Source: Terebella lapidaria (Eukaryota; Annelida; Polychaeta; Terebellida; Terebellidae). From it: DNA of 64,000 nucleotides. The stretch is from positions 19,369,402-19,433,401 of the forward strand of contig OX424567.1 in assembly GCA_949152475.1 (NCBI GenBank), written 5' to 3'. The notes beneath the pieces were generated by a model. It was not told where the DNA came from. It was given only the letters and a program-made list of their open reading frames with translations, and did not search any database. Both the position numbers and the translations under genes were made by a program. Of the stretch, positions 1,443 to 50,345 are shown piece by piece (position 1 is the stretch's first letter; each line of letters begins with the position of its first letter).

Positions 1443-1957
1443 ACAATTTGGTAAACATCAGTTGTACAGTATGAATGATAATGGTGTGCTCTGTTGAACT
1501 ATTGGCATACATGTAACATGATTCTTCCAAACTTTGATAACAGTTCTGTAGCTTGAGTTGATTCGTTGACTGATACGTCGAGTACGAAGTATAGTGTAAA
1601 TTATATACAGTAACACACTCTGACCACATGTGTTTGGGGGTAATTCTCTACAGGCCTGGTCATCAAAACAGATTTCTCTATCATGATACAAATGCATCGT
1701 ATGTTTCATCCGGACAAAATATGAAACCTATCAGGGAATCGTATAGTCTTTAATGGTTGTGTTAAAGTCAAACGTATAGGACAATTTTCAATCGTTTATT
1801 ACTACTAAATACAGCGAGATTCAATGTCCTTTCATTCTTATCGAATATTTTTTTCCCGATATGTCACAATCTTATTGTACAATCCCTTATAGTCCACTTA
1901 TTTACAGGTTTATTTCTTATGACTTATTTGTACCTCTGTATTAACTGGGAATATCTC
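1443..1957. other. No gene seen
   Basis: AT-rich sequence upstream of the SLC1-type exon. It may hold the promoter or 5' untranslated region of that gene, but no specific signal stands out. Confidence 0.4.
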
Positions 1958-2880
1958 TCTGCGTGAACCAGGGGTGGGTATAGGATTTTGGGAGGGGGGG
2001 GGGGCAAACCTTTGATCGACATATCGGCGAACGAAGCGAGATCATGTCGGCTGAGGGTCTGGGGCCGGCCCGCTCGAGGGCCCCAGACGCTGGAGGTTTA
2101 TGCATCCCCTATGGTGTGTTCTAGGGCTATCCTTCGTGCAATTTCATGGCCTTGGAGAGTTTATGAATGCCTGATCTGGGGCGGATCGAGGGTTCTGAAG
2201 GAGAGCCAAGATATGAACTGTTGCGAAGCGAGTTGACGAAGGCCGAGGGTTTGAGGCTCGCTTAAGGGCCCAGAAGCTAAAGGAATACATGCCCAGTGGT
2301 GTTTTTTTCTAGGTCTCCTTTGGTCCATCCCCCATTCCCCTAAGAGTTTTTGCATGGCTAATTCGGAGCAGATGTGGCATCTGAGGGAAGGCCCATTTGT
2401 GAAATGTTACTAAGCCAGGTGAAGCAAGCCCCTATTGGGGCTCAAGGGCCCCAGAAGCTGGCGGTATTCCCGTGCCTAATACACCATCCCATAGCTCTCC
2501 TGGGTCTAACTATCAAGCATTACTTGACAGCCATAAATGCATGATCACTGTAGTTGAAAAAAAATATGACATAAAATATTACTTGGTTATGGAACCCATC
2601 AAAGGATTAAGTGCATTTGGCCATTTAATGCTCTCAAATCATTTAAAGAAGGTGAAGGGCATGAATTGCTTTCACTGAGAACAGATGGGTTGGCAATATA
2701 GAGTGAATACACTGCTCGCGACTTGGGGCCCCAGAAGTTAAAGTTACTTCCCGGTGTAATTTGTCTTGAAAACACTTCCTACCCTCTCTTTTTCGACTTG
2801 TCATTCTTTTTTTCTTCCCTTTCTTCAAGGCCCCCTTCCCTCCCCCCTAAACCCGCCCCTGTGAACCATGCAGACCTGCC
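1958..2880 (+). repeat. Dispersed repeat with degenerate ~190-bp subunits (copy 1)
   Basis: This sequence is related to 22857-23350, where it lies in the opposite orientation. It contains the phrase GGGTATAGGATTTTG, a G-run, and several degenerate subrepeats beginning near 2077, 2268, 2447 and 2724, each around GGCCCCAGAAGCT followed by a TATGCATCCC or ATGCCC-like block. Short open frames on both strands are by-products of the repeat. The class of element is not recognised. Confidence 0.65.
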
Positions 2881-7575: not shown

Positions 7576-8640
7576 CTACAGGCGGACCTTGCTTTGCGCC
7601 GCTACCACGGGTCCGAGGTGGTAGTGGTCGCCGTCAAACCACGTCAATTCCCTACAATAGAAAGAGACGAAAGTATTGTTAGAGGCCCATGTACAGGCCT
7701 TCATGACATCGGCAAGGGCAACATTATTCATGAACGCGAGTGATGACGCCAGAGCTCGCACATCATGCGCCTTCACTCGAAAGGAGCCCGAAGTTCTGGT
7801 GTTGGATCTGTCGTAACAGAACAAAACACATTTCTTTACCCAGGAAGAGATCGTTGCAGCCCTGATATCTTTCTGAAACCCCTTCTTGAACGCAACGAAA
7901 AGTAACCGTTTCCCAACATGAAGCTCCCTCGTGCGATTGACGTAGATGCGCAGAGCTCTGACGGGACACAATTTAGCATCCTCCTCCAAACCCGGGCCTA
8001 GGGAAGAGGTAAGGGACGGGATGGTAAAAGTCATAGACGGGGTCTGGGCTAGCTGAGTTTTAGCCAAAAAGGAAGGGATGACCCCGAGCTTAACCGCGGA
8101 GCCATCCTCCTTCCAGTGCACTTTGGAAAAGTCGAGAGCATGCAGCTCACTTCGCCTCTTCCCTGAAGCAAGGGCCAGGAGGAAGACCGTTTTAAAGGTC
8201 AAAAACTTCAACGACGCTTTCTCCAACGGTTCGAAAGGTTCGGAAAGTAAGCAATTCAAGACTAGCGATAAATCCCAGTCCGGGACTGGATTTCGCGTTC
8301 TAGGTCTGTCGACAGCAAAACTGTTTAATAACGCGGACAAACTCGCATCCTGACCGAAATCGACCCCCGTTTTAGGCTTAAGGGTCTTCGCGATAGCGGT
8401 CCGGTACCCAGCAAGAGTGGACGGAGCCCTTCCCTCATTGAACTTTTCCAGGAGGAACTCCGAGATCAGAGGGGCAGTGGCCTTGAAAGGACTAACCTTC
8501 CTGCCACGACACCAAGCACAGAATCGCGTCCACTTGGATTCGTAGACTGCCAAAGAAGATCGTCTATTTGTTCTGGCGATCCTCGCGGACACTTCTCTAG
8601 AAAAGCCCTTCTTTCGAAAACATCGCTCGACAAGAGCCAC
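7576..8640 (-). other. Tyrosine recombinase domain of the DIRS element
   Basis: This is the C-terminal third of the long frame. It overlaps the end of the RT frame (8466) by about 170 bases, the usual arrangement of RT and YR in DIRS elements. All four expected catalytic positions (Arg, His, Arg, Tyr) are present, and the final Tyr lies in a TFxxFY context typical of the family. Confidence 0.88.
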
Positions 8641-11600
8641 GCGTGAAGTTTCAGCGTGCTCGGAGCTTGATGGAAGATGTCGGACCGAGGCTGCTTGAGT
8701 AGATCCCAACGGTCCGGCAACGGAACTGGGTCGGCTGCTAACAACTCCAGAAGGTCCGGGAACCACGGCTTCTGGGGAAGCAGCGGGGCAATCAGGATCA
8801 TTCTGGCGCAATGCGATCGGAACTTGGCCAGAACCTTCTCCAGGAGCACTGCCGGAGGGTACGCATACGCGAACATGGCGTCCCAATCCGCCGACAGAGC
8901 ATCCACCTCGATACACCGCTCGTCGGGGATGGGGGAAACAAACATTGGAAGCTTTGTGTTCCACCTCGTGGCAAACAGATCGACCGTAGGCGAACCCCAG
9001 AGGTCGCACAAGGCCCGAAACACCACTGGAGACAGGGACCATTCTGTTGGCTGCACCTGTCCCCTCCTGGACAAGCGATCGGCTAGAACATTCATATGGC
9101 CTGGAATGTGACGAGCCCTGAGCAGAATTCGACGCTCGTGACACCAGAGAAGGAGGTCTATTGCGAGCCGGCACAGAGAAACCGACTTTGTACCCCCTTG
9201 CTTGTTTATGTAGGCCACGACTGTGGAATTGTCGGTGGCCAACAGCACAACTTGCTGAGAAAACTGACGTTCCCAATGCTGTAGCGCCAGAAAGACAGCT
9301 TTTAACTCGAGGATATTGATATGCTCGTCCTGCTGCGAACGAGACCACAGACCTGAGCCCTCGTGAGAGTCCCAGTGCGCCCCCCAGCCCTCCAAACTGG
9401 CATCCGTAAAGAGATGCCTGGATGGAGGCGGCTGGCGGAACGGCGCCCCTCGGAACAGGTTGACTGGATCCAGCCACCAACGCAAATCTCGAACCACTTC
9501 CGCCGACACCGGGACCAACTGAGACATGTCCCCGGTCGCCTGGGACCATTGAGAATGCAACTGGTGCTGAAGAGACCTCATGTGTAGGCGCCCTAATGGC
9601 ACCATTTTCTCGGTTGAAGCCAGGGTGCCTATCAGGGACTGCCACCGAGACGCTGGCTGAGGGACCCGATCCAAAAACCCGCGGCACTGCTCTGATAACT
9701 TTAACCGACGCTCCTCGGTCGGGATAACAGATCCGGAGATAGTCCGAAATCGATAGCCCAGAAAGACGAAGTCTTGCCGAGGAGATAAGTCGGACTTTTT
9801 GGGGTTGATTTTGAAACCCATGGAATGGCAAAGATCGACCACCCACTGAGCCTGCCGAACAAGAGTCCGAGGGCAGTGATGCCTGATTAGCCAATCGTCC
9901 AGATACTGATACAGGACGATACCATTGCGATGAGCTAGTACCTGAAGCTCCCTCACGCACATGGTGAAAATCCAAGGGGCCGTGGACAGACCGAAAGGCA
10001 ACGCCCGAAACTGCCAAACTTGGCCCCGATAGAAGAATCTGAGGTACCTCCGAATGGACCGCCTCATCGGAACATGGAAGTACGCATCCTTCAGATCTAT
10101 AGTTACCACCCACGCATTGAGGGGCATCGCCGAGCGAACAACCTCGGGTGTCTCCATCGTGAAGGTGGGTATGTGAAGGTAACGGTTGAGGGCCGAAAGG
10201 TCGATCACCGGCCTCCAACCGCCGGAAGCTTTGGGTACCACAAACAGAATACTGTAAAATCCGGGGGAATGATCTGACACCGGTTCTACCGCTCTTTTGT
10301 CTATCATGGCGGAAATTTCGCTGACGAGCGCTTGACGCCTTTCGGGATCGTGCGGAAGGGAAAAAACCCTTGGAGAAAGCGTCAATGGGGGAAACTGAAC
10401 AAACTTGAGGCCGAACCCCCGACGCAAGGTCGTGACTATCCAGGGGCTGGCTCCCAGATCTCGCCAACGAAGCCAGAAATTGCTGAGACGCGCGCCTACA
10501 GGCTCGTCCGTACTCACGATATTTACGGAGCCTATCGCGCCTGGTGACCCGACCATGCGTGGAAGGTCCGGAGACAACAGCGAGGCACCTACCTGATTTC
10601 TTCTCCCCTGCCGGCTTGGCTGGGCTGGAGGGACGGCCTCGACCTCGGCCACCCCGACCACGTTGCCCCCCTCGCTGCGCGCCTGCAGGGGCCCCACGAA
10701 AGGGCTGCCCCAGAGCCTTACCCCGGCCACGACCTGCCGAGGAAGCCCCACGACTCTGGTGAGATGGTTGCTGCTGCTGGGCGGGTTTCCGTTGCTGCTG
10801 CTGCGCAAGCATACGCGCCCAACGCTCCAGCGCCTGGGATTGACGGACCGAAGCATCAGAGGAGGCCTTCGCTCGCGCCCTATCCTCCTGCCGAGTCTTG
10901 ACTTCCTCCAACTCCCGATGGACCCCCTCCGGAAAGAGGAAGGGAGAAGCAGGCCCTTCCGGCGGAAGTACAGGATGGAGTCTCAGGGACTGAACCAACT
11001 GGTCCGAGATCTTGAAGTCCGCCTTCTGCAAAATGGCATCTCTGCGCCATAACTCGGAGACCCACCACATGTGGGTATCGAGAGCCACCTTGTCAGCCAC
11101 GGCTCGGCCTATCGATTGAATGAGGCTGATAGATCCATGGAGGGCCTCAGCGAGGTCGGACCTATCCAGCTGTTCATTGTTCAATACCTGGTCATGACAG
11201 GCCGTGAGGGCCAACGTAGAGCCATGCACCAGCCAATCCATAGCTGAGTCTACGGCAACTCCCAAACGCAGCGACGCCTGCAGATCCGAAATCTGCGCCC
11301 ACGGAAGGGAAATCGACTTCGGGACAGCGAACACATCCTGCTCCTGAAGCCGCGAAGGCTCGACATCAAGCAAAGAGGAAGTGTAGAAATCCGTCACTCT
11401 GGGCCTTGAGGGATACGCGCCGACATGTGTGCGGTTCTTCTTAACCGTGTCCTCGATCCGCGAAGAAAACGAGTTCCGAACCCCAGGAGCCAGGGGAAAC
11501 CTAAGGGCATCTCTAGGAACCCTGGGCTGCTGTAGGTCCCGCTCAGTGAAGGACTTCGCCTTCTTCGCTGGAGGAGGGGAATCAGAACGTGGTTGAGGCC

Positions 11601-13143
11601 ACTCCTCTCCAGACAACCGACGCACAAAATCCAACTTGTCGGCCCATGGGCGCTTGAAGGGATTAGTAGGATCCTCCTCATCCGCCGACTGCGAGTCTTC
11701 CTCTCGCTGGCGCTTAGGTACCAGTAAACGAGAAGTGCTCGGCTGAGGTCCCTGTAAAGGAACAATGCCATCCTGCTGCACCGAAACGGGAACCACCTCA
11801 GAACCCTCCGAAGGAGAAGACGTAGCAAAAGCTGGCGGCTGACAACGCTGAACCTCTGGGACCCTAGGAGGCCGTGACAAAAGGCTCTCCAGCCTGCCCA
11901 AGAAGTCCTCCCGCATAGTAGCCATCTCCGTCCTGAACTCCTCCTTAGAGATATACGAAGGTGGGGATTCAGCTACAGAATGGTACACTGTGGAAGCCGG
12001 AGAAGGCTTAGAGACTGGTGCCGGCGGAGGCTTGGAAACCGTAGGCAACGGCGGAGGCTTGGAAATCGTCGGAGCAACCGAACCCGCACTCGAAGACGTA
12101 GGCAAGGAGTCAAAAATGAGGCCGGGGTCCGCCGGGACTTCGCCCTGCTCAAAATCCTCCGCAACCTGCGGAAAAAAGGTAGGCGTTAAGGAAAATGAAA
12201 CAGACTTCTTCCATGAAACAGATTCTGAAGAAGTGCCGTCAGTTTTTGACAAGCCACCAGGAAACGGTTGTTTCACAATAACAGTAGGAGATAAAGGATA
12301 GCGTGGCCCTGATCCCACTCCCAACTTTGAACTCCGTACGGGCTGCGAATCCCGGGTTCCAGCAAGCACTGGAGGGCTCCCGGGAACCGGAAAACGGGTC
12401 CCGGGAACCGACAATTGGTTCCCGGAAACCGGCCCACGGTTCCCGGGAACCGTCAGAACCCCAAAGGAAAAGGCTGACGGAAACCCAGGAGCCGAAAAGC
12501 CCATACCCGTGCCACCTGCACGATCCACAGGGTCCTCGGAGCCTGTGGCATCGGAAGGCAGCTGTTCACAATTTGAGACGTTAACAGAGTTGAACTCCCG
12601 GTTAAAGGACCCCGGGAGCCGCATCCGAACGGAGCTCAAAGCCGGAAACCGAGGAATCAGAGGCATGTTGCAGCGTGAGACCTTGGAAACCAATGGCGGA
12701 ACAGGGCTAAAGGAAGACGACATCAAACCCGGTGGCTGATGTAAAAAACTCACGGTACTAACAGTACAACCCTGGTTCCCGGGAACCGGCAAACCGGGTC
12801 CCGGGAACCGCGAAAACGGCAAGCTGAAAGACAAAAACATGTCTAAACTTACAGCAGAAATGGTACGTAGTAGACGTAAATCCTGCTCCTCGCGCCTCTG
12901 CGCGCTCTGCTTGTACCTCGACTTTTTACTAGAAGTAGCTGAGGGACTGAGAGGGGGGATAGGTTTAGCCAACCGTTCTAGTTGCACCTGGCGCAGACCG
13001 TTGAGATAATCTGACCAATCGTCTACTCCCCACGAAGCGCACATCCCGCAACAGGCAGTAGGTCGGCACAACTCTCTACACATCCAGCAATTATGATGTA
13101 GTTCCCACTTGGGGAGAAACTGCTGGCACCCAGCGCACTTCAT
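7576..13143 (-). CDS. DIRS Gag-like protein and tyrosine recombinase in one open frame
   Basis: An open frame of about 1855 codons from ATG at 13143. The N-terminal part (roughly 13143-10560) is Gag-like: a Cys/His cluster (CAGCQQF, HHNCWMC, CRPTACCGMC) at residues about 3-45, a long Pro/Ser-rich region with repeated VPGN/VPGT motifs, and a Gln-rich then RGG-rich tail (GRGRG, RGGRGRGR) likely to bind nucleic acid. The middle (about 10550-8650) is Arg/Ser-rich and is probably just the off-frame reading of the overlapping reverse transcriptase. The C-terminal part (about 8640-7576) is a tyrosine recombinase: a SAM-like N-terminal region, then LASGKRRSELHAL (catalytic Arg), KAHDVRALASS (His-x-x-Arg) and NTFVSFYCREL (catalytic Tyr). 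The recombinase is expected to integrate the circular DNA copy. Whether one polyprotein is made, or Gag and YR are expressed separately, is not visible. Confidence 0.85.
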   Translation of the reverse strand: MKCAGCQQFLPKWELHHNCWMCRELCRPTACCGMCASWGVDDWSDYLNGLRQVQLERLAKPIPPLSPSATSSKKSRYKQSAQRREEQDLRLLRTISAVSLDMFLSFSLPFSRFPGPGLPVPGNQGCTVSTVSFLHQPPGLMSSSFSPVPPLVSKVSRCNMPLIPRFPALSSVRMRLPGSFNREFNSVNVSNCEQLPSDATGSEDPVDRAGGTGMGFSAPGFPSAFSFGVLTVPGNRGPVSGNQLSVPGTRFPVPGSPPVLAGTRDSQPVRSSKLGVGSGPRYPLSPTVIVKQPFPGGLSKTDGTSSESVSWKKSVSFSLTPTFFPQVAEDFEQGEVPADPGLIFDSLPTSSSAGSVAPTISKPPPLPTVSKPPPAPVSKPSPASTVYHSVAESPPSYISKEEFRTEMATMREDFLGRLESLLSRPPRVPEVQRCQPPAFATSSPSEGSEVVPVSVQQDGIVPLQGPQPSTSRLLVPKRQREEDSQSADEEDPTNPFKRPWADKLDFVRRLSGEEWPQPRSDSPPPAKKAKSFTERDLQQPRVPRDALRFPLAPGVRNSFSSRIEDTVKKNRTHVGAYPSRPRVTDFYTSSLLDVEPSRLQEQDVFAVPKSISLPWAQISDLQASLRLGVAVDSAMDWLVHGSTLALTACHDQVLNNEQLDRSDLAEALHGSISLIQSIGRAVADKVALDTHMWWVSELWRRDAILQKADFKISDQLVQSLRLHPVLPPEGPASPFLFPEGVHRELEEVKTRQEDRARAKASSDASVRQSQALERWARMLAQQQQRKPAQQQQPSHQSRGASSAGRGRGKALGQPFRGAPAGAQRGGQRGRGGRGRGRPSSPAKPAGEKKSGRCLAVVSGPSTHGRVTRRDRLRKYREYGRACRRASQQFLASLARSGSQPLDSHDLASGVRPQVCSVSPIDAFSKGFFPSARSRKASSARQRNFRHDRQKSGRTGVRSFPRILQYSVCGTQSFRRLEAGDRPFGPQPLPSHTHLHDGDTRGCSLGDAPQCVGGNYRSEGCVLPCSDEAVHSEVPQILLSGPSLAVSGVAFRSVHGPLDFHHVREGASGTSSSQWYRPVSVSGRLANQASLPSDSCSAGSVGGRSLPFHGFQNQPQKVRLISSARLRLSGLSISDYLRICYPDRGASVKVIRAVPRVFGSGPSASVSVAVPDRHPGFNRENGAIRAPTHEVSSAPVAFSMVPGDRGHVSVGPGVGGSGSRFALVAGSSQPVPRGAVPPAASIQASLYGCQFGGLGGALGLSRGLRSVVSFAAGRAYQYPRVKSCLSGATALGTSVFSASCAVGHRQFHSRGLHKQARGYKVGFSVPARNRPPSLVSRASNSAQGSSHSRPYECSSRSLVQEGTGAANRMVPVSSGVSGLVRPLGFAYGRSVCHEVEHKASNVCFPHPRRAVYRGGCSVGGLGRHVRVCVPSGSAPGEGSGQVPIALRQNDPDCPAASPEAVVPGPSGVVSSRPSSVAGPLGSTQAASVRHLPSSSEHAETSRVALVERCFRKKGFSREVSARIARTNRRSSLAVYESKWTRFCAWCRGRKVSPFKATAPLISEFLLEKFNEGRAPSTLAGYRTAIAKTLKPKTGVDFGQDASLSALLNSFAVDRPRTRNPVPDWDLSLVLNCLLSEPFEPLEKASLKFLTFKTVFLLALASGKRRSELHALDFSKVHWKEDGSAVKLGVIPSFLAKTQLAQTPSMTFTIPSLTSSLGPGLEEDAKLCPVRALRIYVNRTRELHVGKRLLFVAFKKGFQKDIRAATISSWVKKCVLFCYDRSNTRTSGSFRVKAHDVRALASSLAFMNNVALADVMKACTWASNNTFVSFYCRELTWFDGDHYHLGPVVAAQSKVRL
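8466..10856 (-). CDS. DIRS reverse transcriptase / RNase H / methyltransferase-like protein
   Basis: An uninterrupted frame of 796 codons from an ATG at 10856; the true start may differ because the first ~100 residues look like off-frame Gag. Reverse transcriptase motifs in order: FVVPKASGGWRPVIDLSALN, TIDLKDAYFHVPM, LPFGLSTAPWIFT, and the catalytic YLDDW at about 9895-9908. RNase H follows with FTDASLEGWGAHW, INILELKAVFLAL, LLATDNSTVVAYI and IPGHMNVLADRLSR. The C-terminal region (WGSPTVDLFATRWNTKLP, then ALSADWDAMFAYAYPP) matches the methyltransferase-like segment usual in DIRS elements. The frame lies entirely inside the longer Gag/YR frame in a different register. Confidence 0.92.
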   Translation of the reverse strand: MLRSVNPRRWSVGRVCLRSSSNGNPPSSSNHLTRVVGLPRQVVAGVRLWGSPFVGPLQARSEGGNVVGVAEVEAVPPAQPSRQGRRNQVGASLLSPDLPRMVGSPGAIGSVNIVSTDEPVGARLSNFWLRWRDLGASPWIVTTLRRGFGLKFVQFPPLTLSPRVFSLPHDPERRQALVSEISAMIDKRAVEPVSDHSPGFYSILFVVPKASGGWRPVIDLSALNRYLHIPTFTMETPEVVRSAMPLNAWVVTIDLKDAYFHVPMRRSIRRYLRFFYRGQVWQFRALPFGLSTAPWIFTMCVRELQVLAHRNGIVLYQYLDDWLIRHHCPRTLVRQAQWVVDLCHSMGFKINPKKSDLSPRQDFVFLGYRFRTISGSVIPTEERRLKLSEQCRGFLDRVPQPASRWQSLIGTLASTEKMVPLGRLHMRSLQHQLHSQWSQATGDMSQLVPVSAEVVRDLRWWLDPVNLFRGAPFRQPPPSRHLFTDASLEGWGAHWDSHEGSGLWSRSQQDEHINILELKAVFLALQHWERQFSQQVVLLATDNSTVVAYINKQGGTKSVSLCRLAIDLLLWCHERRILLRARHIPGHMNVLADRLSRRGQVQPTEWSLSPVVFRALCDLWGSPTVDLFATRWNTKLPMFVSPIPDERCIEVDALSADWDAMFAYAYPPAVLLEKVLAKFRSHCARMILIAPLLPQKPWFPDLLELLAADPVPLPDRWDLLKQPRSDIFHQAPSTLKLHAWLLSSDVFERRAFLEKCPRGSPEQIDDLLWQSTNPSGRDSVLGVVAGRLVLSRPLPL

Positions 13144-13370
13144 CTGGAAAGATAGCACAAACCAATGTGCGATGGGCGATAATAGGGGAAGAAACAGTAA
13201 CCTAAGAGGATTTACCAGTTCCTCCCAAAAACACTAAACTACACTACTCTAAACTACTGTAAACAGTACAATAAAGCAGTAAAATAATCCTGAGATCCAA
13301 AGATCCGAGAAAGTGATGAGAAAACTCCAATTGAAAGCCAAGGAGTAAGAAGCTTGTCCTTCCAACAAAG

Positions 13371-34602: not shown

Positions 34603-35649
34603 GACGCGACACTGAACTTAGTTCATTTTCCAGAGACGCGAACTGACTTAGTTCACGGTTCCCCCTCAACTCAACTAAATCTCTGCCGGCATATGCACCT
34701 GCGAGTAGTAATCTGCGTGTACAACTATACCGTCACACTTCAACAGTGTTAGGAAACAGAGGGCGACACTGTCTGAATTTGTGATGAACTTCGTCACCAT
34801 TATTATATCATGAGAATAGAAGTACATGTCCACTTGCTATTCTCGTAATTTTCAATGATATACAACACGGTATTTACCAAATTCTGCTAACTGATGACTG
34901 TATCCAATGAATGGTTTGCATGAAAATGATGAATATATATCAATCATGGATTATGAGTCTATGAATGAATCATGAATACAAATATGGTTTTAGATTCCCG
35001 ACCATGCCCACTGCTTGTGCTACCACCTTTCAGTGTCTTGGTGAATTAGAATTGGGACTCAACAGTAACACCACATTTATTGTTCACCTTCTCATCTACA
35101 TTATATTGGCCTCGATCAAGGTTCCTTGGCATCAAACGAATTAGGTTTCGGCAGTGATGAAAACGACTCGCTAGTACGCAAACAAACGCATCTTGTTTGA
35201 GCAGATGCAGTTTGTCCACTGGCGGTTGTTGATTTACACGCAGTAGATTATATTGTAGTAGGTTATTGGAGAGAATAATCTACTGCAATATTCTACCGGG
35301 ATCCGTCTCCCAGTAGATTCTGAAAAATAATCCACTGCAAAGAACAATAGAACCGTGGACTAATGAATGGATAATGAACCTGAAATCCTCAACTGCTACT
35401 CGTATAACATCGAATATAAAATGGTGTGGCAATTCAATGAAATAAGAAGCTAATTTCATAGCAAACAACATATTAATCAGCAAAAATAATAGGTATCAGC
35501 AACATCAGCACATCTCGAAATCATACAAAATCGTCATACGCTCAAATATTGAATAGAAAATCAATATGAAAAAGAGAAAAATATTCGAAACAGACATGTG
35601 TACGCATTTATACTTGAATAAACTGAATAACAAATGATATTTGACAGGA
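34603..35649. other. Upstream flank of the Schlafen-like gene
   Basis: AT-rich, with no further coding exon recognised. The last bases before the first coding ATG read TATTTGACAG, which could be a weak acceptor of a 5' untranslated intron. Promoter elements cannot be assigned. Confidence 0.4.
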
Positions 35650-38600
35650 ATGAGCATCATGGCCGGTCACAAGGTTGTAGAAGATCTTAAGAGGTATGCA
35701 GTACCACTGGATGAGCTCTTTAGGTTAAACTACTCAGGATTTGCCTTCCGAGTGGAGTTGAACCGACAAAAGAAGAAAGGAAATGAGCGATATGAGGCTG
35801 ACCCTGTGTTGCTGAAGATTGTGCCTGCTCTGCTGAACTCATGTGGTGGTTTGGTCATATTGGTTCCAGGAGAGGATGAAAAAGAACTAGACTGTAATCA
35901 TTTCAATGAGTGGGAAACCAGACTGATAGACATATTGAACTTCCTGCCGCCAGATGAGTTTCAGAGATGCATTGTCATAGGAGAGTTCAAACCGGATAAT
36001 GTGAATATGTACATCAGCAAAGCAAAACTTTTTGTCACTACTGAGTCACATATGTACACTAGGTTTCCCGCAAGTAATCGCCATGTCCTGCAATACAATG
36101 ACATCTCGAATATCCTCACAAAATACATTTTGAGAGACGTGAGGAACAGCCGTGGACAAGAGAGTCACTTTGAACAACCTCTGTCAGAAGAGCTGCCTAT
36201 AAAAGGACCATTCACCATCGACAGCAGAATCACAAAGCCTGAATCTGCAAACATTGAGTTCAAATGTTTTAGGGTGAAGAACCTCGAGGATTTGTGGAAC
36301 CGAATTGCAGAGGATAAGGATAAGCGATGTTGTAAAGCCATATTTGGCATGGGCAATGTATCAGGTGGTGGGTATATTGTCTTTGGAATCAATGACGCCA
36401 ATATAGTCAAGGGACAGAGTCTTGGCGATATTGAGGAAGATGAGCAGGGTAAATTCAAGCAAAAACTGGCAGAGCTGCTGAATATTGATGCATCTGGTAA
36501 AAAACGAATCTGGGGTCAACCAGGTGTAGAGCCTATAGAAGGGGAACACTGGTCATGTGACTTCTTCCCTGTGGAAGGGACATCCAGAGAGAGGCGGAGA
36601 CGAGTGGTGATCGTCATCAACATACGCGAATGCCAGGATGGGGGCATGGACAACATGCCAGAAGCGTTTGTCATTGATGACGATGGTTTTATTGCAGAAG
36701 TCGACTTTGAATACTGGAAGAGCCAACACCTTCCTAACCAAAACCGATACGTCTCTGCCAACATGAGCCCCCTTCAACAGACACCAAGTTTCGCAAGTTT
36801 ATCACCAACACCAGGCCAGAGTAAAGACTGTAACAATGTTGAGGCAGATTCTGGTTCTGACCCATTACTCAGGAGGACTACGCAAAGGCGCATCAGCTCA
36901 CAAGGAACATTCGAAGATGGTGTGACAATAACATACACAGAGAATAGCTCATTTAGCGAAGAATGCAAATGGGCATGGCGATTGTCAGATGTCCAAACAG
37001 ATGCCAGTGATGGACCTTTTCAGCGAACTCTACCACTCAAGTGCACACCTAGTCGAGAGGTATTGTCCAGAGTTCTACCATATAATCAAAGAGAGCAAGT
37101 GATTGATCATATTGAAGGAGCAACAGAAGGGAAGGGTTGTGTCATAGCAGCAGACACCCTCTTCAGCTGTATCCAGCATGCTGCAAAGTTGGAATTTCTC
37201 ACTAAGTTCCAAGTTGGAATTGATCCAGGGACTCAACACCCTCCTGACCACATCATGGATTTGCTGGTGATCAGTGAACAAACACCAGTTACTGTGTACG
37301 TCCTGTGCGAAAAATATCATGATGGACAGAATCTGTATGCCGTTGCCTTAACAAGATTACTCCGGAAGAAAATATTGGAGATCCTAGGCACAGATGGACT
37401 CCAGGGTGGAATTGACACGTTTGGTATTCGTTACTGCGTCATAACTACAACGTCCACACATGCTGACATAACTGATAAAATGAGAAACAAGGAAGTGATG
37501 ATGCCTGGCTGTCTGAATGAGGTTTGCTCATCCCTGGCGAAACTGTTTACAGGAGTGAAGAACCATTTTCGAGATGGAATCATTCAAAGTGCTGAGTTGA
37601 GGCTATCGAAGGAACAAACTAATGTACTTCTTTGCACAGACCAGAGCAAGGTCAGTGTCATCGAAGGTGCTCCGGGCACCGGCAAGACCCTTCTCGCTCA
37701 GCACGTCTGTGAGTCCGTAGGAAAGGAGTTCTCTGCTTATATCACATGTTCAAAATCACTAGCAAACAAGGTCAAAAGCAATGGCAGAGTACAGGCATTT
37801 CATATCAAGGATGCTTCAGAAATCGCATCCCTCTTGGCCGAAGAGATAATGAAATCAAGAACGCATCTCGTCATTGATGATTGCCAGAACATTCAACAGA
37901 CAAGAACAGACTGCAAACGAATCTATGATCATATAGCTGCAGTGGAACACAGGCATGTCTATGTGTTTCAAGACTCACGATACCAGAATTACGAACACAA
38001 ATCCTATAAGGTCGGGCTCGGGAAGACGTTGTTTGATTACGCAGAAAGGGACTTTGTGTCATGTATGTTCAAAACATTGAGTCACATTCAGCGAAACAGT
38101 TTCACGATTGGTTCCTATATCAGACTCCATGCCCAAGATCTCTCAATGGAAAGTCCTGTAACCAGTGTCACAAGCGTGACAGGAGATAACATCACAATCA
38201 GACACGAACCCAAGCTGAGAACAGAAGATAGAAACAACGCTTTGTTGAGGCATATCCAGAAGCTCACAGAGAGTAACTTTACCTCGAGAAAGATAAGATA
38301 TTCATTCAGCGAAATTGGAATTCTCTGTGATGACCATGGGCAGAAAGACGATGGTGACGTGAAGATGTTTCTCAGGTTGTTTGAGGAGTACCTTCCCGAA
38401 AGTAGACCTCGGAGAGCGGAAGATGAAGGCACAAGTGATGGCATCACTATTGACTACCTGAAGGAGTTCTCAGGTCTCGAGAGAAAAGTGATTGTTTACA
38501 TATGCCCTAAGCAAGAGACGGTACAAAACGTACCTGCACACGCTACCCTGGCCGACCCCAGATACAAAATCTTCCTCTTCTCTCGAGCTATCTACAGAGT

Positions 38601-39926
38601 CGACATTTTGCAGGAAGAAAACTTGGATGAACAGATGGCAAACGAATTGAAATGTGACATATACCAAACTAAACCATTGTGAGTACATGTGTGCGTTCTG
38701 TTTTAGTAGACATGAATGCAAGTGAATGTTTAAATATGAGTTTATTCATGGTGTGTGAAAGTGATCTTTAATTTTGAGTTGTGATCTCTTTCCAGGAGAA
38801 ATTCACAGAATGAGGTGACAATGGTGAGTATATCATACTACTATGAACTGAGTGTTTGTGAATTAAAGACATTGTGATAAAACCATGTTATAACACGAAC
38901 ACCAACTGCTCATCAGTTCCTGACTGAAGACGAAGACGATGCTGGAGCAAGTGGTGGAGCGAACTCCAATATTAGCCCTAAAGTAACACAAGTAGGAGCG
39001 TGTCTATAGTGGACAAATGTTGCTAATTGTGTCATCAGGCATAAACTCCTTATGAATCATTGTTAAAATGATAATAAACGTACATAGTGAATTTACGGGA
39101 TTTGTTTCAGCCATCACAGGAAGCAACAATTGGACCCATAGCTGGTTCAATTGCACTGAACGCTAATGCGGACATTCTGTGTTGCTTTCCTGACAAAGGT
39201 GTAGAGACATATTCTGTGTCACAAAGTGGATCAGTCTCCAGTACTGAACTGCATTCGCGAGTACCACACATGCAAGCATACAGCGTGGCAGTACATAAAA
39301 CTGGCGATGTTGCTGTAGCCTATCACCCGTTGGACTCCAGAGAGGTACATCTTCACACCTATAGTAAAGTACGTGACGTCTGGACGGAGACTCACCTGGG
39401 TCCTGGTCAATGGCCAAGAATCACGTTTACAAACCGAGGAGATGTCGTGGTTTGTATAGGAACTCATCAAATGAAGTGGAACATCTTGGTGTACAACACG
39501 CTGTACGCCAAGGAAATGTGGAGAATATATACCGATTGTGGGGACATCAATGACGTCGCTGTAGACTCCAATGATCAAATCTACTGCTGCGACTCCATCA
39601 ACAATGGGATCGCGATCTACAGCGAGAACGAAGGCTCAGTTGACACATGGAGTCCGCAAGCATTGAACCGAGAGTTCTTGACTCCTGTCTCGCTCTGTAT
39701 TGATGGAAGGGATAGTGTCTACGTGATGCATAGGGAGAAAGACGACTTTGGGAACACTGGAGTGGTCACTATGTGGACACATGCTGGCCAATACATCAAA
39801 GATGTTGTACAAGGTTTGCCTGACCCGTACAGACTGTCCTCGGCCTGTATGAGATTGAACAAAAGGAATAAACTTAAACTGATCGTTGCACTTTACGGCA
39901 CTATCCGTGTATACAAGCTGGCTTAG
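35650..39926 (+). CDS. Schlafen-family protein fused to a C-terminal beta-propeller, four coding exons
   Basis: Exons 35650-38678, 38796-38823, 38917-38991 and 39111-39926. All introns are GT-AG, phases agree (2, 0, 0), and the product has about 1315 residues. Exon 1 codes for a long (group III) Schlafen: an N-lobe at about residues 20-150; the C-lobe AlbA_2 core with ESANIEFK at 198-205, where Schlafen ribonucleases have their paired acidic residues, then GGGYIVFGINDAN; a Ser/Pro-rich linker near 375-420; and a superfamily 1 helicase-like domain with Walker A GAPGTGKT (673-680), Walker B LVIDDCQN (about 740-748) and a late motif FSGLERKVI near 940. Long Schlafens cleave tRNA/rRNA or act at stressed replication forks and restrict viruses; function here is by family. 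Exons 2-3 add an acidic linker (LTEDEDDAGASGG) and exon 4 a six-blade propeller. ATG 35650 is the first; ATG 35659 (ATCATGG) has the better context. Confidence 0.88.
39111..39926 (+). CDS. Last exon: six-bladed NHL-like beta-propeller module
   Basis: 271 codons after a TTTGTTTCAG acceptor, in phase 0 with the preceding exon, ending at TAG 39924-39926. Six blade-like repeats can be read, each with a hydrophobic-Ala/Asp-strand pattern: SIALNANADILCCF, SVAVHKTGDVAVAY, RITFTNRGDVVVCI, DVAVDSNDQIYCCD, SLCIDGRDSVYVMH and LNKRNKLKLIVALYG. This resembles the NHL-type propellers of TRIM2/TRIM71-like proteins, which bind RNA or protein partners. An upstream in-frame ATG at 39087 lies in the intron, so a separate short gene cannot be completely excluded, but the acceptor and matching phase favour joining to the Schlafen exon. 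Confidence 0.8.
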   Translation, partial: PSQEATIGPIAGSIALNANADILCCFPDKGVETYSVSQSGSVSSTELHSRVPHMQAYSVAVHKTGDVAVAYHPLDSREVHLHTYSKVRDVWTETHLGPGQWPRITFTNRGDVVVCIGTHQMKWNILVYNTLYAKEMWRIYTDCGDINDVAVDSNDQIYCCDSINNGIAIYSENEGSVDTWSPQALNREFLTPVSLCIDGRDSVYVMHREKDDFGNTGVVTMWTHAGQYIKDVVQGLPDPYRLSSACMRLNKRNKLKLIVALYGTIRVYKLA

Positions 39927-41379
39927 ACTGCTAGGCTCATGTTGGCACTATGGTATTTAACATGATGCAAACCCAGAGCATTTTGTGCACGTTGAAGCTG
40001 CTGCCTTCGAATGTATGCAATATTTTTTTTTCAAAACCAATTTTTTGTTAAACACATCTAATGCAATATAACAAAAGGTGAGCTCAAAGATTTTGACGAT
40101 TACAGTCCATCCGAGTTGTCTTTTCATCCGTTTTAGTGCCCTTTTTGTACCGGTTTTGTAAATAAACAAACGAAGTGTATCCATCAAACCCGAATGTAAA
40201 CAAATGCTCAAATCGCGCTTAAAAGTCCACATCGAGTACATTTTCAAGTTCGTATGTGCATATATAGCGTAGTTGTGAGAAAATAATCAGTGATATACCA
40301 TGATGTGCGTGGAATTGTCAGTCTATCTCGCACTTCCATGCTTCGTTTACATCTGCGTGTGATGGATACATCTCCTGTATCTACGTGAGAACCGCCTGTT
40401 CAAATGAGCAAAATTTCCCTGAGGACCGGTTATTCATTCCATTTGATGTGAGTATGTTTCATTAAGTTAGTTTAGCATGTTTAATATGAAATATAAGTTT
40501 CAAAAAATATTGACTGGTTTCGATGGCAGCTGCTTTAAATAAGGTCCAATATCGTTCGTTTCTTTGTGCGTGGATGCCTGGTTGACCAAATAGTTCACCC
40601 TATGGGAAACTGGCACTTTCCCATTTATGAGTATTGTTTGTAATTATTATTTGTTTTAAATTTTCTCCATTTATTGTCTTTTTCTATTGCTGTGCTATGT
40701 AATTATTTGCTCATGATTTTCGGCATCAAACTCAAGTGTGGTGATAAGTCTTGTTGAATTTTAAGCATTCAGATGTTATGTGGGTTTGGGTCTCATTTAT
40801 TGCTCTGCATTATTTGTTCATAATCATTCCTTTGTAGTTTTATTTTGGTGGAATTGCTAACGCATGTTTTTCTAACGCATGTTTTTCTGTTTTTTGGATG
40901 CTATCTTCGGATCTGTCATTTCGTCCTTCCTATCTTTACATGTCATAAGTCCCTGAGTCCAGACTTCGGTTCAGTTCGAGCCCCCAGCAGTTAGCTTTTT
41001 CGCCACTCCGTTTATTTTTTTTTTTTACCAAACTTTACTCTGATGTGTTGTGTTATTTTGATGTTTACGTCATGATATCCCTACTCTTCTCACATTTGGG
41101 AGAGTGCTCAAATGGATGTTACGGCTGGAGTAGTAGCCGCGGGTTTGGGTACTCTCTTTTCCAATCTTCGCTTCCACGTTCCATAATCTGTTCCCATGCA
41201 TATATGATTTATGTATCCCCCTGGTTATGTTGTCCATTAAAGATGTGTATTTCCACCTCATCTGTTCTGTGAATAAAGTTGCAATCGGCATTATACATAT
41301 TTTTATTAATTTCCACAGTGTTACCATTCGTATATTTAGGAAGCTGTTATTTTGAATGGCTATGTTATGATCGAATACT
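39927..41379. other. 3' flank of the Schlafen-like gene; no further gene seen
   Basis: An AATAAA at 40161-40166 is the first good candidate polyadenylation signal, about 240 bases after the stop codon. The remaining sequence is T-rich and shows no coding exon. The portion after about 41280 leads into a decayed LINE. Confidence 0.45.
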
Positions 41380-42660: not shown

Positions 42661-43022
42661 ATATAAAAACAACTTAAGTCCTATTTATTCACAATATATT
42701 TACAACCATTTTCAGTGCTATCGTATACATGCTCAATTATACAATTTGTATCGAAAGCAACCCTTTTTTGCAGCCAGACATTCCAAAAATAGTACATGTA
42801 CTGCTCATGGTGTCATGACAACTGATTGTAAAACAATAAATGATTGTCCGATGTTGGGATTTCCCGAACTTCTGGTTGAAGAAGTTGAGAAAAATCACAT
42901 CGAACTTTTGCATGAAATGCGCATGATTTGTGAACATGAAATTTTCTCCATAATCTCTCTTGATTGTTTTCTTTGCATGAAACCTACGTACTAGTACTCG
43001 TTAATACGGATGTTCTTGAAAA

Positions 43023-44819
43023 TCAGCCTAGATGCTAAGGAAAATTACCGGGCAGTATATGTTTTATATATTAGCCATTCTGTCCAGTGACTTTGAAAAT
43101 ATTAAGCTCACTGGACAAATCCGAGGTCATAAAGGATATTCAGCATAATATCATTTCCCGTATGTCCACAACTGATTCTCAAGTTGTAAAGTCGATAAAA
43201 AGTGAGGAATTAGCATTTTGTCCTATGACCTTGATAATACGCTAAAAAATAGGGGCAAGGTCATGAGAGTATTCAGCATGTATCATTTCCGACCTTGAAA
43301 ATAAGGTCGAAGGTCAAAATCAAGGTCATCAAAATAATCGGCATGCATCATTTTTATGTCCCCATAATTGATTCCCAAGCAGTAAAGTCGATAATAAGCG
43401 AGATATTAGCCATTTTATCCTTTGATCTGGTAAATGAAGTCAAATGTCAATAATATTTCAAAGTCATGACAATATTCAGCATATATCATTTCCTATTTGT
43501 TCACATTTGATTCCTAAGCTGTAAAGACTATAATAAGCGAGATATTGGCCCTTTTGTGCTCTGTCCTTGAAAATTAGGTCAGAGGTCAAGTTCAAGGTCA
43601 CGAGAGTATTCAGCATATATCATTTCCTATATGTGCACAGTTGGTCCTAAGCTGTGAAGTCGATATTAAGCGAGACATACACCATTTCGTCCTGTCACCT
43701 TGAACATTGGGTCAAAGTTCAAATTTAAGGTCACGAGAATATTCATCATCTATCATTTCTTATATGTTCACAAATATTGATTCCTTTTGTGACCTCGAGT
43801 TTGACCTCATGACACATCATACCTAATATCTCACTTAATACTGATATTAGGAATCAATTGTGCACATATAGGAAATGATATATGTTGAATATTGTCATGA
43901 CCTTTTTACCTCTGACCTAAATTTCGAGATCAAAGCACAAAATGACTCACTTATTATTGGTTTTGCAGCTTAAGAGTCCATTGTGAACATATAGGAAACG
44001 ATATTTGCTGAATGTTGTCATGACATCGAATTCGACCTTTGACCTCATTTTCAATGTCAGAGCACAAAATGGCTAAAATCTCGCTTTTTATCGATTTTTA
44101 TTTTTATCGAATCAGTTGTGGACATATAGGAAGTGATAAATGCTGAATATTCTCGTGACCTTAAATTTGACCTTTGGTCTCATTTTCAGTGTCCGAGCAC
44201 AAAGTGGCTAATAATTATTTCGTTTATTATCGAACTCATAGTTTAGGAATCAATTTCATCGAGATCCGTTTCTTTGGACATGTAGGAAATGATATATACT
44301 GAATATCCGTGTGACCTTGAATTTGACCTCTGACCTAATGCCTAATTAATATCTCCCTTATTATCGACTTTACAGCTTAAGACATATAAGAAAATGTCAT
44401 ATTATGGACATATGAGAATTGATATATGCTCAATATTCTCGTGACTTTGAATTTGACTTTTTGAATTTTCAAAGTCGTAACACAAAAGGGCTAATATCTC
44501 GCCTATTCTCGACTTTACAGCTTAGGGATCAATTGTTGACATAAAGGAAGTGATATATATTTAATTGACTCATGACCTTGAATTTGACCTTTGATCGCAT
44601 TTTCAAGGTCAGAACACAAAATGGTTAATATTTTGCTTATCATCGATTTTACAACTTAGGAATTAATTGTGGATATATAGGTAAGGATATATGCTGAATA
44701 TTCTTGTGATCTTGAATTTGACCTTTGCCCTCGTTTTCAAGGTCACGGAACAAAATGGCTATATGTAAGATATAAAGTATATTCTCCGGTAACCTTTCTT
44801 AGCCCTTTGGCTAATTTTA
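43023..44819. repeat. AAGGTCA tandem arrays arranged head to head between GGTTACCGG-type ends
   Basis: The left end TAAGGAAAATTACCGG (about 43036) and the right end CCGGTAACCTTTCTTAGCC (about 44787) are inverted copies of the family terminus. Left of about 43785 the ~137-bp units read GACCTTGAAAAT...AAGGTCA; right of it they read in the opposite direction (TGACCTTGAATTTGACC...TTTTCAAGGTCA). The element is therefore a large imperfect inverted repeat, more diverged than the 51-kb and 58-kb arrays. Confidence 0.8.
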
Positions 44820-48690: not shown

Positions 48691-49049
48691 TTACATTTAT
48701 CTGGTAAATTTTCACGTAAATTTTTTCAATTTCAATTGTGTCAGTATTTTAAACATGGCAAAGTTTAACGAAAATTAACTGTGAATAACATCATTTTATT
48801 TGTTATTCATTATTCGATCTGCATGCGAACACAACACGTGGAAACACGATTAATGAATGCTGCTCAGGATCGATTTGAAGGCTCACAAATTGAAAAACAA
48901 GTAATTCAGTGTGCTTTCATAATGATTGATAACGGTTACACTCACTCATCGACAAATGTGTTTGGTTTGGGACGTGTGGCATTGTAACAGAGATTACGTG
49001 GGCAACAGTCGGCCAGTTCAGCAGCGGGATTTCCGAGAATTGAGAGAAG

Positions 49050-50345
49050 ATGGACAGTGAGCAATCAGGAAGAAAACTGCGGGTTTCCCTCATGGCGACT
49101 CTGCTTCTTGTCGTTACATACAATATCGCGACCGAGTCTGCGAGGCAGTTGAACAAAGCTCCCAGTCCAGTCCAGGTACATGTGCCCAACCGCGACGTCG
49201 AAATTCAGATGTCGTTTGAAAAGAGAGCATACGAGAATAACACGCTTGGATGTACGGTTCAAGTAGTTCAAGTGACCGATGAAACACTTTCATCTCGAGA
49301 TAATTTGGAGCCTATGTGTACTCAGAGGCTCCTTGATGAGTTTTTCATGTCCACGGGCCAGTTCCACGGAGAAGGAACGTGGTATGTCTCCAACTTCACC
49401 GACCCTGATGAAAACATCCAATACGTACCGAGCGTGTGCTCGTTTGCTTCAACTTTGGACACAGCAAGAAAACAAATACCGAGATGTTTCCAGGAGAGAG
49501 AAATCAGGAAAATCCTCATAACTGGGGACTCTAATGGGCGACACTTCAAAGATGGACTCGTGCATTATTTGGAAGATGCAGAGTACAGCTGCACGGAAGT
49601 ACGCTCAACTCTCACAAGTGAGGATGGTGTGTTGGTAAAGAACGACAGTTATTTAGATGTTCCAGGAGTCCCTCGTGAGCAGCTGCATCTACCGAATAAC
49701 ATGTTTGCAAGGGACAACTGGGCTTTCAAGGAATATAATTGTAAAAATGCACGTTCGATTGATGCTGACGTGCGCATTGAGTACATACACGGCTCGAGGT
49801 TTCCAGACCCTAAACTATATCTTCAACCAAAATCATCAGGTCTCAACTTTGAGGAACGGGTTTACAAGGCAGAATCTGATGTGGAATATCTTGTTAAGTA
49901 CTACTACCCATATCATGGCTTCCCCGATGTTTGGTATTATACCTTACCATTCCACAATGTCGCTATTAGCACCTCGTCTGACATGCTGCGATTGAAATTA
50001 AAGACTCTCCTGGGGCTGTTGGATATCTTCCTTCCAAACACCACCCACGTTATATTCATTGCAGACGCGACGGTTTGTCCCTCTGGAAGTATGGAGGAAT
50101 ATGTTCATGAATTCCAGCGCCATTGGAACATGACGATGGATGAGAAAATCCACGAGATGAACCAATTATCTTACGAGGAGCTGACTGCAGAGATGCCACG
50201 TCATGACAACTATCACGTGTTCCTGGACGCCACAAGAGTCGCGTGTCCAGTCACGTGCACGTGGCACCATGACCCCGCCCACATGCTTCCGGCCTGGTAC
50301 TATAAAATGGCGGAGTACAACTTGGACATTCTCTGTACAGAGTGA
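49050..50345 (+). CDS. SGNH/PC-esterase-like type II membrane or secreted protein, single exon
   Basis: An intronless 431-residue frame whose ATG has a good context (AAGATGG). A short basic N-terminus (GRKLR) is followed by a hydrophobic segment at about residues 12-28 (VSLMATLLLVVTYNIA), a signal anchor or signal peptide. The rest looks lumenal or extracellular, with many cysteines and N-glycosylation sequons (N63-N-T, N115-F-T). The core motif ILITGDSNGRHF places a nucleophile serine at 161 (GDS block of SGNH hydrolases), and near the end WHHDPAHMLPAWY gives the D408-x-x-H411 pair that completes the triad in GDSL/PC-esterase proteins such as the TBL and CASD1 families. A role in acylating or deacylating a glycan or surface molecule in the secretory pathway is inferred; no substrate can be named. 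AATAAA signals follow at 50472 and 50545. Confidence 0.8.
   Translation: MDSEQSGRKLRVSLMATLLLVVTYNIATESARQLNKAPSPVQVHVPNRDVEIQMSFEKRAYENNTLGCTVQVVQVTDETLSSRDNLEPMCTQRLLDEFFMSTGQFHGEGTWYVSNFTDPDENIQYVPSVCSFASTLDTARKQIPRCFQEREIRKILITGDSNGRHFKDGLVHYLEDAEYSCTEVRSTLTSEDGVLVKNDSYLDVPGVPREQLHLPNNMFARDNWAFKEYNCKNARSIDADVRIEYIHGSRFPDPKLYLQPKSSGLNFEERVYKAESDVEYLVKYYYPYHGFPDVWYYTLPFHNVAISTSSDMLRLKLKTLLGLLDIFLPNTTHVIFIADATVCPSGSMEEYVHEFQRHWNMTMDEKIHEMNQLSYEELTAEMPRHDNYHVFLDATRVACPVTCTWHHDPAHMLPAWYYKMAEYNLDILCTE

Follow-up and report, generated by a model that had tools for sequence, protein, structure and literature searches.

The N-terminal core of Schlafen proteins has been linked to the cleavage of tRNA and rRNA, and their C-terminal domain is described as helicase/ATPase-like (PMC9256597, PMC12215978). 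Here we describe a Schlafen gene of the annelid Terebella lapidaria in which a complete long Schlafen appears to be spliced to a C-terminal beta-propeller resembling those of the TRIM-NHL proteins. The gene lies on the forward strand of a 64,000-nucleotide (nt) stretch of DNA, referred to below as the window, at positions 19369402-19433401 of contig C14 (OX424567.1) in a 761.6-Mb assembly that we searched for related loci. The COX1 of this assembly is read with the invertebrate mitochondrial code (code 5; TGA=W, ATA=M, AGA=S), which points to a protostome. As judged from its sequence, it is a well-supported novel form of the known Schlafen family, with a wider interest that comes from the modular nature of its tails.

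The closest described relatives are the vertebrate Group III Schlafens (SLFN5, SLFN11, SLFN13 and SLFN14), with which the predicted protein shares an N-terminal core with AlbA_2, an ExxxxExK motif with an arginine, a middle region and an SF1-type helicase/ATPase with Walker A and B motifs, all in the same order. It differs from them in carrying a C-terminal tail domain, apparently spliced on, as do other members of its family, and in two further features that are taken up below. An initial, sequence-only reading of this DNA had drawn the contrast more sharply, stating that vertebrate Schlafens end after the helicase domain, and this cannot be upheld as worded, since SLFN5 is described as having an extended, partly disordered C-terminal region (PMC8875196). 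Fusion of Schlafen to other domains is also found in the prokaryotic Schlafen-domain conflict proteins, as reported among bacterial HEPN proteins (PMC3710099), whereas the window gene encodes a full animal-type long Schlafen, with the tails of its family added at one intron. With the TRIM-NHL proteins (TRIM2, TRIM3, TRIM71, Brat and Thin) the product appears to have a C-terminal NHL-type propeller in common, one that is diverged in sequence and in the window falls under the Pfam cut-off for NHL. Scanned against Pfam at E <= 10, exons 1 and 4 gave no RING, B-box or coiled-coil families (the lengths of exons 2 and 3 do not allow such a scan), and in the absence of a RING or B-box the predicted product is not a TRIM protein. 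The earlier statement that no described Schlafen with a propeller tail is known agrees with our searches of the open-licence PMC literature on Schlafens, in which no such fusion appears in the titles and opening lines of abstracts among the papers listed; predicted proteins with this architecture may well have gone unnoticed in protein databases.

That a full long Schlafen is contained in a single exon was borne out. The open frame of exon 1 runs through 1009 codons plus two bases, and residues 198-276 of its product match Pfam SLFN_AlbA_2 with 32.5 bits against a curated cut-off of 25.3. A profile made from this exon and 19 paralogues (20 sequences in all) matches SLFN5 (E 1.4e-33), SLFN11 (1.4e-32) and SLFN14 (4.7e-26) in the PDB through separate stretches in the core and the helicase, the helicase part of SLFN11 being covered from residue 479 to 921. 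All 20 aligned sequences match AlbA_2 at E <= 0.001; PF09848 reaches that level in one of the 20 and in the window stays under its cut-off (20.2 vs 24 bits).

The ExxxxExK motif (E198-K205, with E198, E203 and K205) and R138 are invariant throughout the 20 sequences. Both ExxxxExK and a nearby arginine are among the features defined for SLFN14 (PMC12215978), and we assume R138 to be the counterpart of R133 in that protein. The next acidic site, as read by the author from the alignments, is D249 in the window, a glutamate in most paralogues and an alanine in locus L033. The DD pair of Walker B (743-744) is likewise invariant, and Walker A (GAPGTGKT, 673-680) is kept in 19 of the 20, L033 having GAPGCDKT. 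Signatures of nuclease and ATPase are intact, the two functions being predicted from them, and the RNase of the Schlafen part is probably active. The SWAVDL/SWADL-type pattern of the middle domain, by contrast with Group III, occurs in none of the 20 sequences, and the zinc-finger CC pair of SLFN5 and SLFN11 stands opposite non-cysteine residues of the profile. In SLFN14 the finger consists of H282, C284, C318 and C319 (PMC12215978); the window has H300 and C303, but with a spacing that differs from that of the zinc finger. Because the middle-domain pattern is missing and the cysteine pair unaligned, the predicted protein is classed as a long Schlafen whose layout resembles that of Group III, and not as a vertebrate-type Group III member.

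The joining of this exon to the propeller through two small exons with GT-AG borders and matching phases at three introns, as the sequence-only reading had it, holds up in the sequence. The junctions read 38678/gtgagt, ag/38796-38823/gtgagt, ag/38917-38991/gtagga and ag/39111-39926 (Table 1), and the joined exons 1-4 make 3948 nt with intron phases 2, 0 and 0, translating into 1315 residues with a single terminal stop. The apparent TGA stop of the Schlafen open reading frame (ORF) at 38680-38682 is itself created by the phase-2 GTGAGT donor. A phase-2 GTRAGT donor closes the ORF in the same manner at 27 of the 30 fetched loci, window included, in which the Schlafen match reaches residue >= 980 (20 GTAAGT and 7 GTGAGT), as against 54 of 1557 ORFs of 60-400 codons in a comparison set from the same loci and the window; the exceptions are L037 and L039, each with a phase-0 donor 30 nt past the match, and L051. 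Two GTRAG donors are present in all between 38561 and 39110, and both are used by the gene model. The 28-nt exon can be read by eye at the equivalent place in paralogues on contigs C15 (L030) and C16 (L015), as can an acidic linker exon in L038. At the other end of the gene, AG sites shortly 5' of the ATG are also visible by eye in several of 16 paralogues, and no upstream exon was found for the candidate intron of the 5' untranslated region (UTR) whose 3' splice site would lie at 35637..35647. Taken together, the region is very probably one spliced gene, with a predicted product of 1315 amino acids that fuses a Schlafen to a propeller.

The identity of the tail was assessed with a profile of ten homologous exons from the genome (propeller A; two rows partial). 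It matches the NHL domains of TRIM3 (E 7.4e-11), TRIM2 (1.8e-10), Thin (4.5e-9) and TRIM71 (7.7e-8), with Brat included in a range that extends to 7.6e-7. It also aligns with three NHL propellers of the same genome (set A3) over 223 columns (hhalign 97.8%), a match that is not independent because these three were picked from weak matches of window exon 4 itself; L021, the sole one of the three scanned against Pfam, is a RING-NHL protein. Of the claim of six propeller blades, the propeller is favoured by the TRIM-NHL profile matches, and the number of blades is suggested by modest internal repeats, offset by ~135 and ~45 residues in a self-comparison of the profile (hhalign 55% and 17%), with which six blades would be compatible.

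The gene does not stand alone, being one of seven loci with this arrangement in an expanded Schlafen family. The propeller A exon has 11 matches in the genome at E <= 1.4e-4, counting that of the window, besides three weaker ones. At seven of 62 Schlafen/AlbA loci, the window among them, one of the 11 follows the Schlafen downstream within 5 kb and on its strand, the distance past the Schlafen match being ~250-400 nt in six cases and 4641 nt in the seventh; as a control, 0 of the 62 loci have propeller A on the other strand or ahead of the Schlafen over a distance of 8 kb. These 62 comprise 45 picked from 59 Schlafen matches (one per gene) and 18 AlbA places, less one duplicate, and at the 18 places the AlbA match alone was used and distances were measured from it. 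Since the scoring for Schlafen covered 45 of 244 candidates, the Schlafen count is a lower bound. Contigs C397 and C44, the three weakest propeller A matches and four second pieces of propeller B matches (see below) were set aside, and the end of the locus at C16:18207734 was taken from its second piece, ~6 nt short.

At the six other loci the Schlafen and propeller parts are each 25-35% identical to those of the window, which speaks against the recent copying of one locus as the source of the pairing, except in the close pairs L037/L039 and L030/L044. The idea that exon 4 is a chance ORF was rejected, as paralogous exons are 25-33% identical and the ratio of nonsynonymous to synonymous substitution (dN/dS) is 0.17 for the propeller exon of L037/L039 (0.33 for the Schlafen exon) and 0.32 for that of L030/L015. 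The propeller of L038/L017 gives 0.51, on 161 codons (L017 and L018 are fragments), and two propeller pairs with the window are too diverged for dS. As far as these ratios indicate, the tail is under purifying selection in duplicate pairs. A single gain of propeller A was considered and not retained: a quick tree asks for 4 changes (a mean of 6.5 on shuffling, with as few as 4 in 6 of 500), with a warning of long branches, the window's included, and its strongly supported branches alone force 1 change; on this tree the tail may be ancestral or a later gain.

Propeller A is not the only tail found behind these Schlafens. Propeller-like sequence of another kind (propeller B), spread over two ORFs, lies downstream of L028, L029, L033, L036 and L049, in L029 as the first ORF only. 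Four joined copies were combined into a profile, which matches the Pizza six-bladed designs (E 1.5e-12) and PknD (2.8e-4) and is barely related to propeller A (hhalign 41% over 71 columns). Its first exon has 66 matches in the genome at E <= 0.001, and 9 of the 62 loci have it downstream on their own strand at a distance of up to 8 kb, against 0 in the control; seven further Schlafens, left uncounted, have propeller B 15-45 kb downstream on the same strand, the control extending over 8 kb. At L041 the frame can be read on across a linker exon as far as an SH3 domain, followed by a second SH3 exon of fitting phase (Pfam 5.1e-13 and 5.3e-15; borders by eye), while L034 and L040 have acidic low-complexity ORFs downstream. 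No known domain was recognised in the 1.5 to 5 kb downstream of the remaining loci. The 27 of 30 fetched Schlafen loci with the conserved donor seem to continue past the helicase domain, some with other tails, and because these tails share their place, the phase-2 intron that follows the helicase appears to be a joint at which modules can be exchanged (propeller A, propeller B, tandem SH3 and others). Two side observations concern the same loci and contigs: at L042 and L043, ORF stretches of basic, nuclear-localisation-like composition follow the conserved donor downstream of the Schlafen exon, and contig C13 holds many propeller B matches at ~5.2-15.2 Mb, none within 8 kb downstream of the Schlafen matches counted (45 of 244 candidates scored), possibly a cluster of propeller B genes with other partners.

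Several observations weigh against a fused protein with an NHL-like tail as we read it. The window propeller is by itself marginal to NHL, exon 4 alone scoring 11.5 bits in Pfam, under the cut-off of 20, and E 0.0098 against Pizza6; in Pfam NHL other copies reach 19.1 (L039), 10.6 (L012) and 23.4 bits (L038), with L030 unmatched, and the NHL propellers of set A3 were chosen with the aid of this very exon. Intron 3 has a weak GTAGGA donor and an AATAAA at 39073, the Schlafen part is interrupted by a stop in L030 and by a frame break in L044, so that some loci may be decaying, and at L012 and L013 propeller A stands behind non-Schlafen exons, with no Schlafen match upstream (5 kb and 1.5 kb, respectively) and a dN/dS of 0.88 for the pair, which would make their propeller relaxed or diversifying. 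Such propellers with no Schlafen match nearby, together with a Schlafen ORF that closes with a stop and the AATAAA in intron 3, would suit two adjacent genes, a Schlafen ending at 38680-38682 and a separate propeller gene, as would the methionine at residue 5 (L038) or 2 (L030 and L015) of the propeller exon, which makes a separate start possible in these 3 of 10 rows. In the window, however, the first methionine comes at residue 54 (40-43 in five other rows), the stop sits within the donor kept at 27 of 30 loci, and the pairing recurs at seven loci, six of them strongly diverged from the window in either part; separate genes were rejected as the main reading on these grounds and are very improbable. 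A propeller-less form may nevertheless exist, given the weak third donor and the AATAAA beside it, and one gene could then yield two products, mostly a plain Schlafen ending in the introns and a minor or induced propeller form. Set against this are the purifying selection on the tail in duplicates and the conserved joint, which indicate that the long form matters, and we regard a predominantly tail-less output as rather unlikely.

What the propeller binds, and to what end, admits further alternatives. Among solved structures, those nearest to it by profile are TRIM3, TRIM2, Thin, TRIM71 and Brat, and the NHL domains of Brat and TRIM71 bind RNA, so the tail might be an RNA-binding module of the Brat or LIN-41/TRIM71 kind that passes RNA to the nuclease. 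The suggestion that the tail recognises RNA finds no support in its composition: the isoelectric point (pI) is 5.2-6.5 in 10 of 10 rows (two partial), compared with 8.4, 8.9 and 5.2 for the NHL propellers of the same genome, although overall charge is a weak guide to a binding face. RNA binding was therefore demoted from main interpretation on charge and seems doubtful, and the mildly acidic character of the propeller tips us slightly towards its binding protein instead. As to purpose, the enzyme could be a housekeeping or germline factor of RNA surveillance, acting for example against transposons, rather than an antimicrobial sensor; SLFN11 is reported to be able to restrict LINE-1 (PMC12153781), and two kinds of reverse transcriptase ORF lie within the window. 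Copy number and diversity of tails are, we infer, more usual for immune families, and the surveillance role appears improbable to us, if not strongly so.

The likely explanation of the locus as a whole is therefore a Schlafen nuclease-ATPase that bears an NHL-like propeller on an acidic linker, within a family whose tails appear to be interchangeable. The product would be a 149-kDa protein made up of the long Schlafen nuclease-ATPase, the short acidic linker and the C-terminal propeller. Its Schlafen part would act as an endoribonuclease for tRNA/rRNA, with its ATPase part and oligomerisation controlling the activity, and the propeller, a sensor or targeting arm for protein, would direct the nuclease to a given ligand or activate it there, the outcome being a shutdown of translation, local or within an infected cell. 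Many copies with diverse tails would fit recognition under conflict, and Schlafens are listed among the genes upregulated in mussel gill after Vibrio (PMC7772429); the antiviral role proposed in the sequence-only reading would be plausible, and whether the role is one of defence we consider evenly balanced.

Table 1. Features of the Schlafen-propeller gene in window coordinates, with the propeller A exons of two further loci
Feature	Position	Strand	Remarks
Possible 3' splice site ahead of the start codon (5' UTR intron)	35637..35647	+	tatttgacag, then ga ATG
Exon 1, long Schlafen in full: N core (AlbA_2), middle region and SF1-type helicase/ATPase	35650..38678	+	residues 1-1009 and 2/3 of codon 1010; Pfam and profile matches
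Intron 1, phase 2, GTGAGT donor	38679..38795	+	27/30 Schlafen loci close their ORF at such a donor
Exon 2, 28-nt linker exon	38796..38823	+	GT-AG borders
Intron 2, phase 0, gtgagt...cag	38824..38916	+	reading of splice borders
Exon 3, 75 nt, acidic/glycine linker FLTEDEDDAGASGGANSNISPKVTQ	38917..38991	+	open frame
Intron 3, phase 0, weak donor GTAGGA	38992..39110	+	AATAAA at 39073 inside
Exon 4, NHL-like propeller, 816 nt, 271 aa and stop	39111..39926	+	profile matches to TRIM2/3/71, Thin and Brat NHL domains
Candidate polyadenylation signal AATAAA, 3' of the stop	40161..40166	+	consensus match only
L012, propeller A exon	1462..2289		preceded by lysine/arginine-rich ORFs, not Schlafen
L013, propeller A exon	1492..2319		preceded by lysine/arginine-rich ORFs, not Schlafen

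Elsewhere in the window, the segment 53951-59051 and a copy 4949 nt downstream form a tandem, 99.9% identical, with a reverse transcriptase ORF (RVT_1, E 6.1e-23) that we take to be of non-LTR (long terminal repeat) type; the tandem is either a recent duplication or an assembly duplicate. On the reverse strand, 7576-13233 holds large ORFs of a retroelement, presumably of DIRS or Ty3 type (a guess), with RVT_1 in the ORF at 8466-10982 (E 1.1e-21), and 964-1431 is a probable exon of a sodium:dicarboxylate symporter (SDF, E 6.8e-11). A single ORF of 433 amino acids at 49044-50345 (+) has no Pfam match at E <= 0.001 and, from motifs alone, presumably resembles a protein of NXPE/PC-esterase type. 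Degenerate repeats of ~134 nt, direct and inverted, occupy 43000-44800, and tRNA and Rfam scans of the window gave 0 matches.

Vertebrate Schlafens make one ask how an RNase with hardly any sequence specificity finds its target and is activated, and different binding domains on one enzyme core would amount to natural fusions for testing how such an RNase is targeted. It could equally well prove true or false that non-vertebrate animals keep a large Schlafen arsenal, laid out like the NLR and TRIM families, in which the phase-2 intron acts as the plug for recognition modules and to which the window gene would belong as an old, diverged branch. The loci described here suggest that Schlafens would be diversified effectors in an invertebrate, and not mainly a mammalian family.

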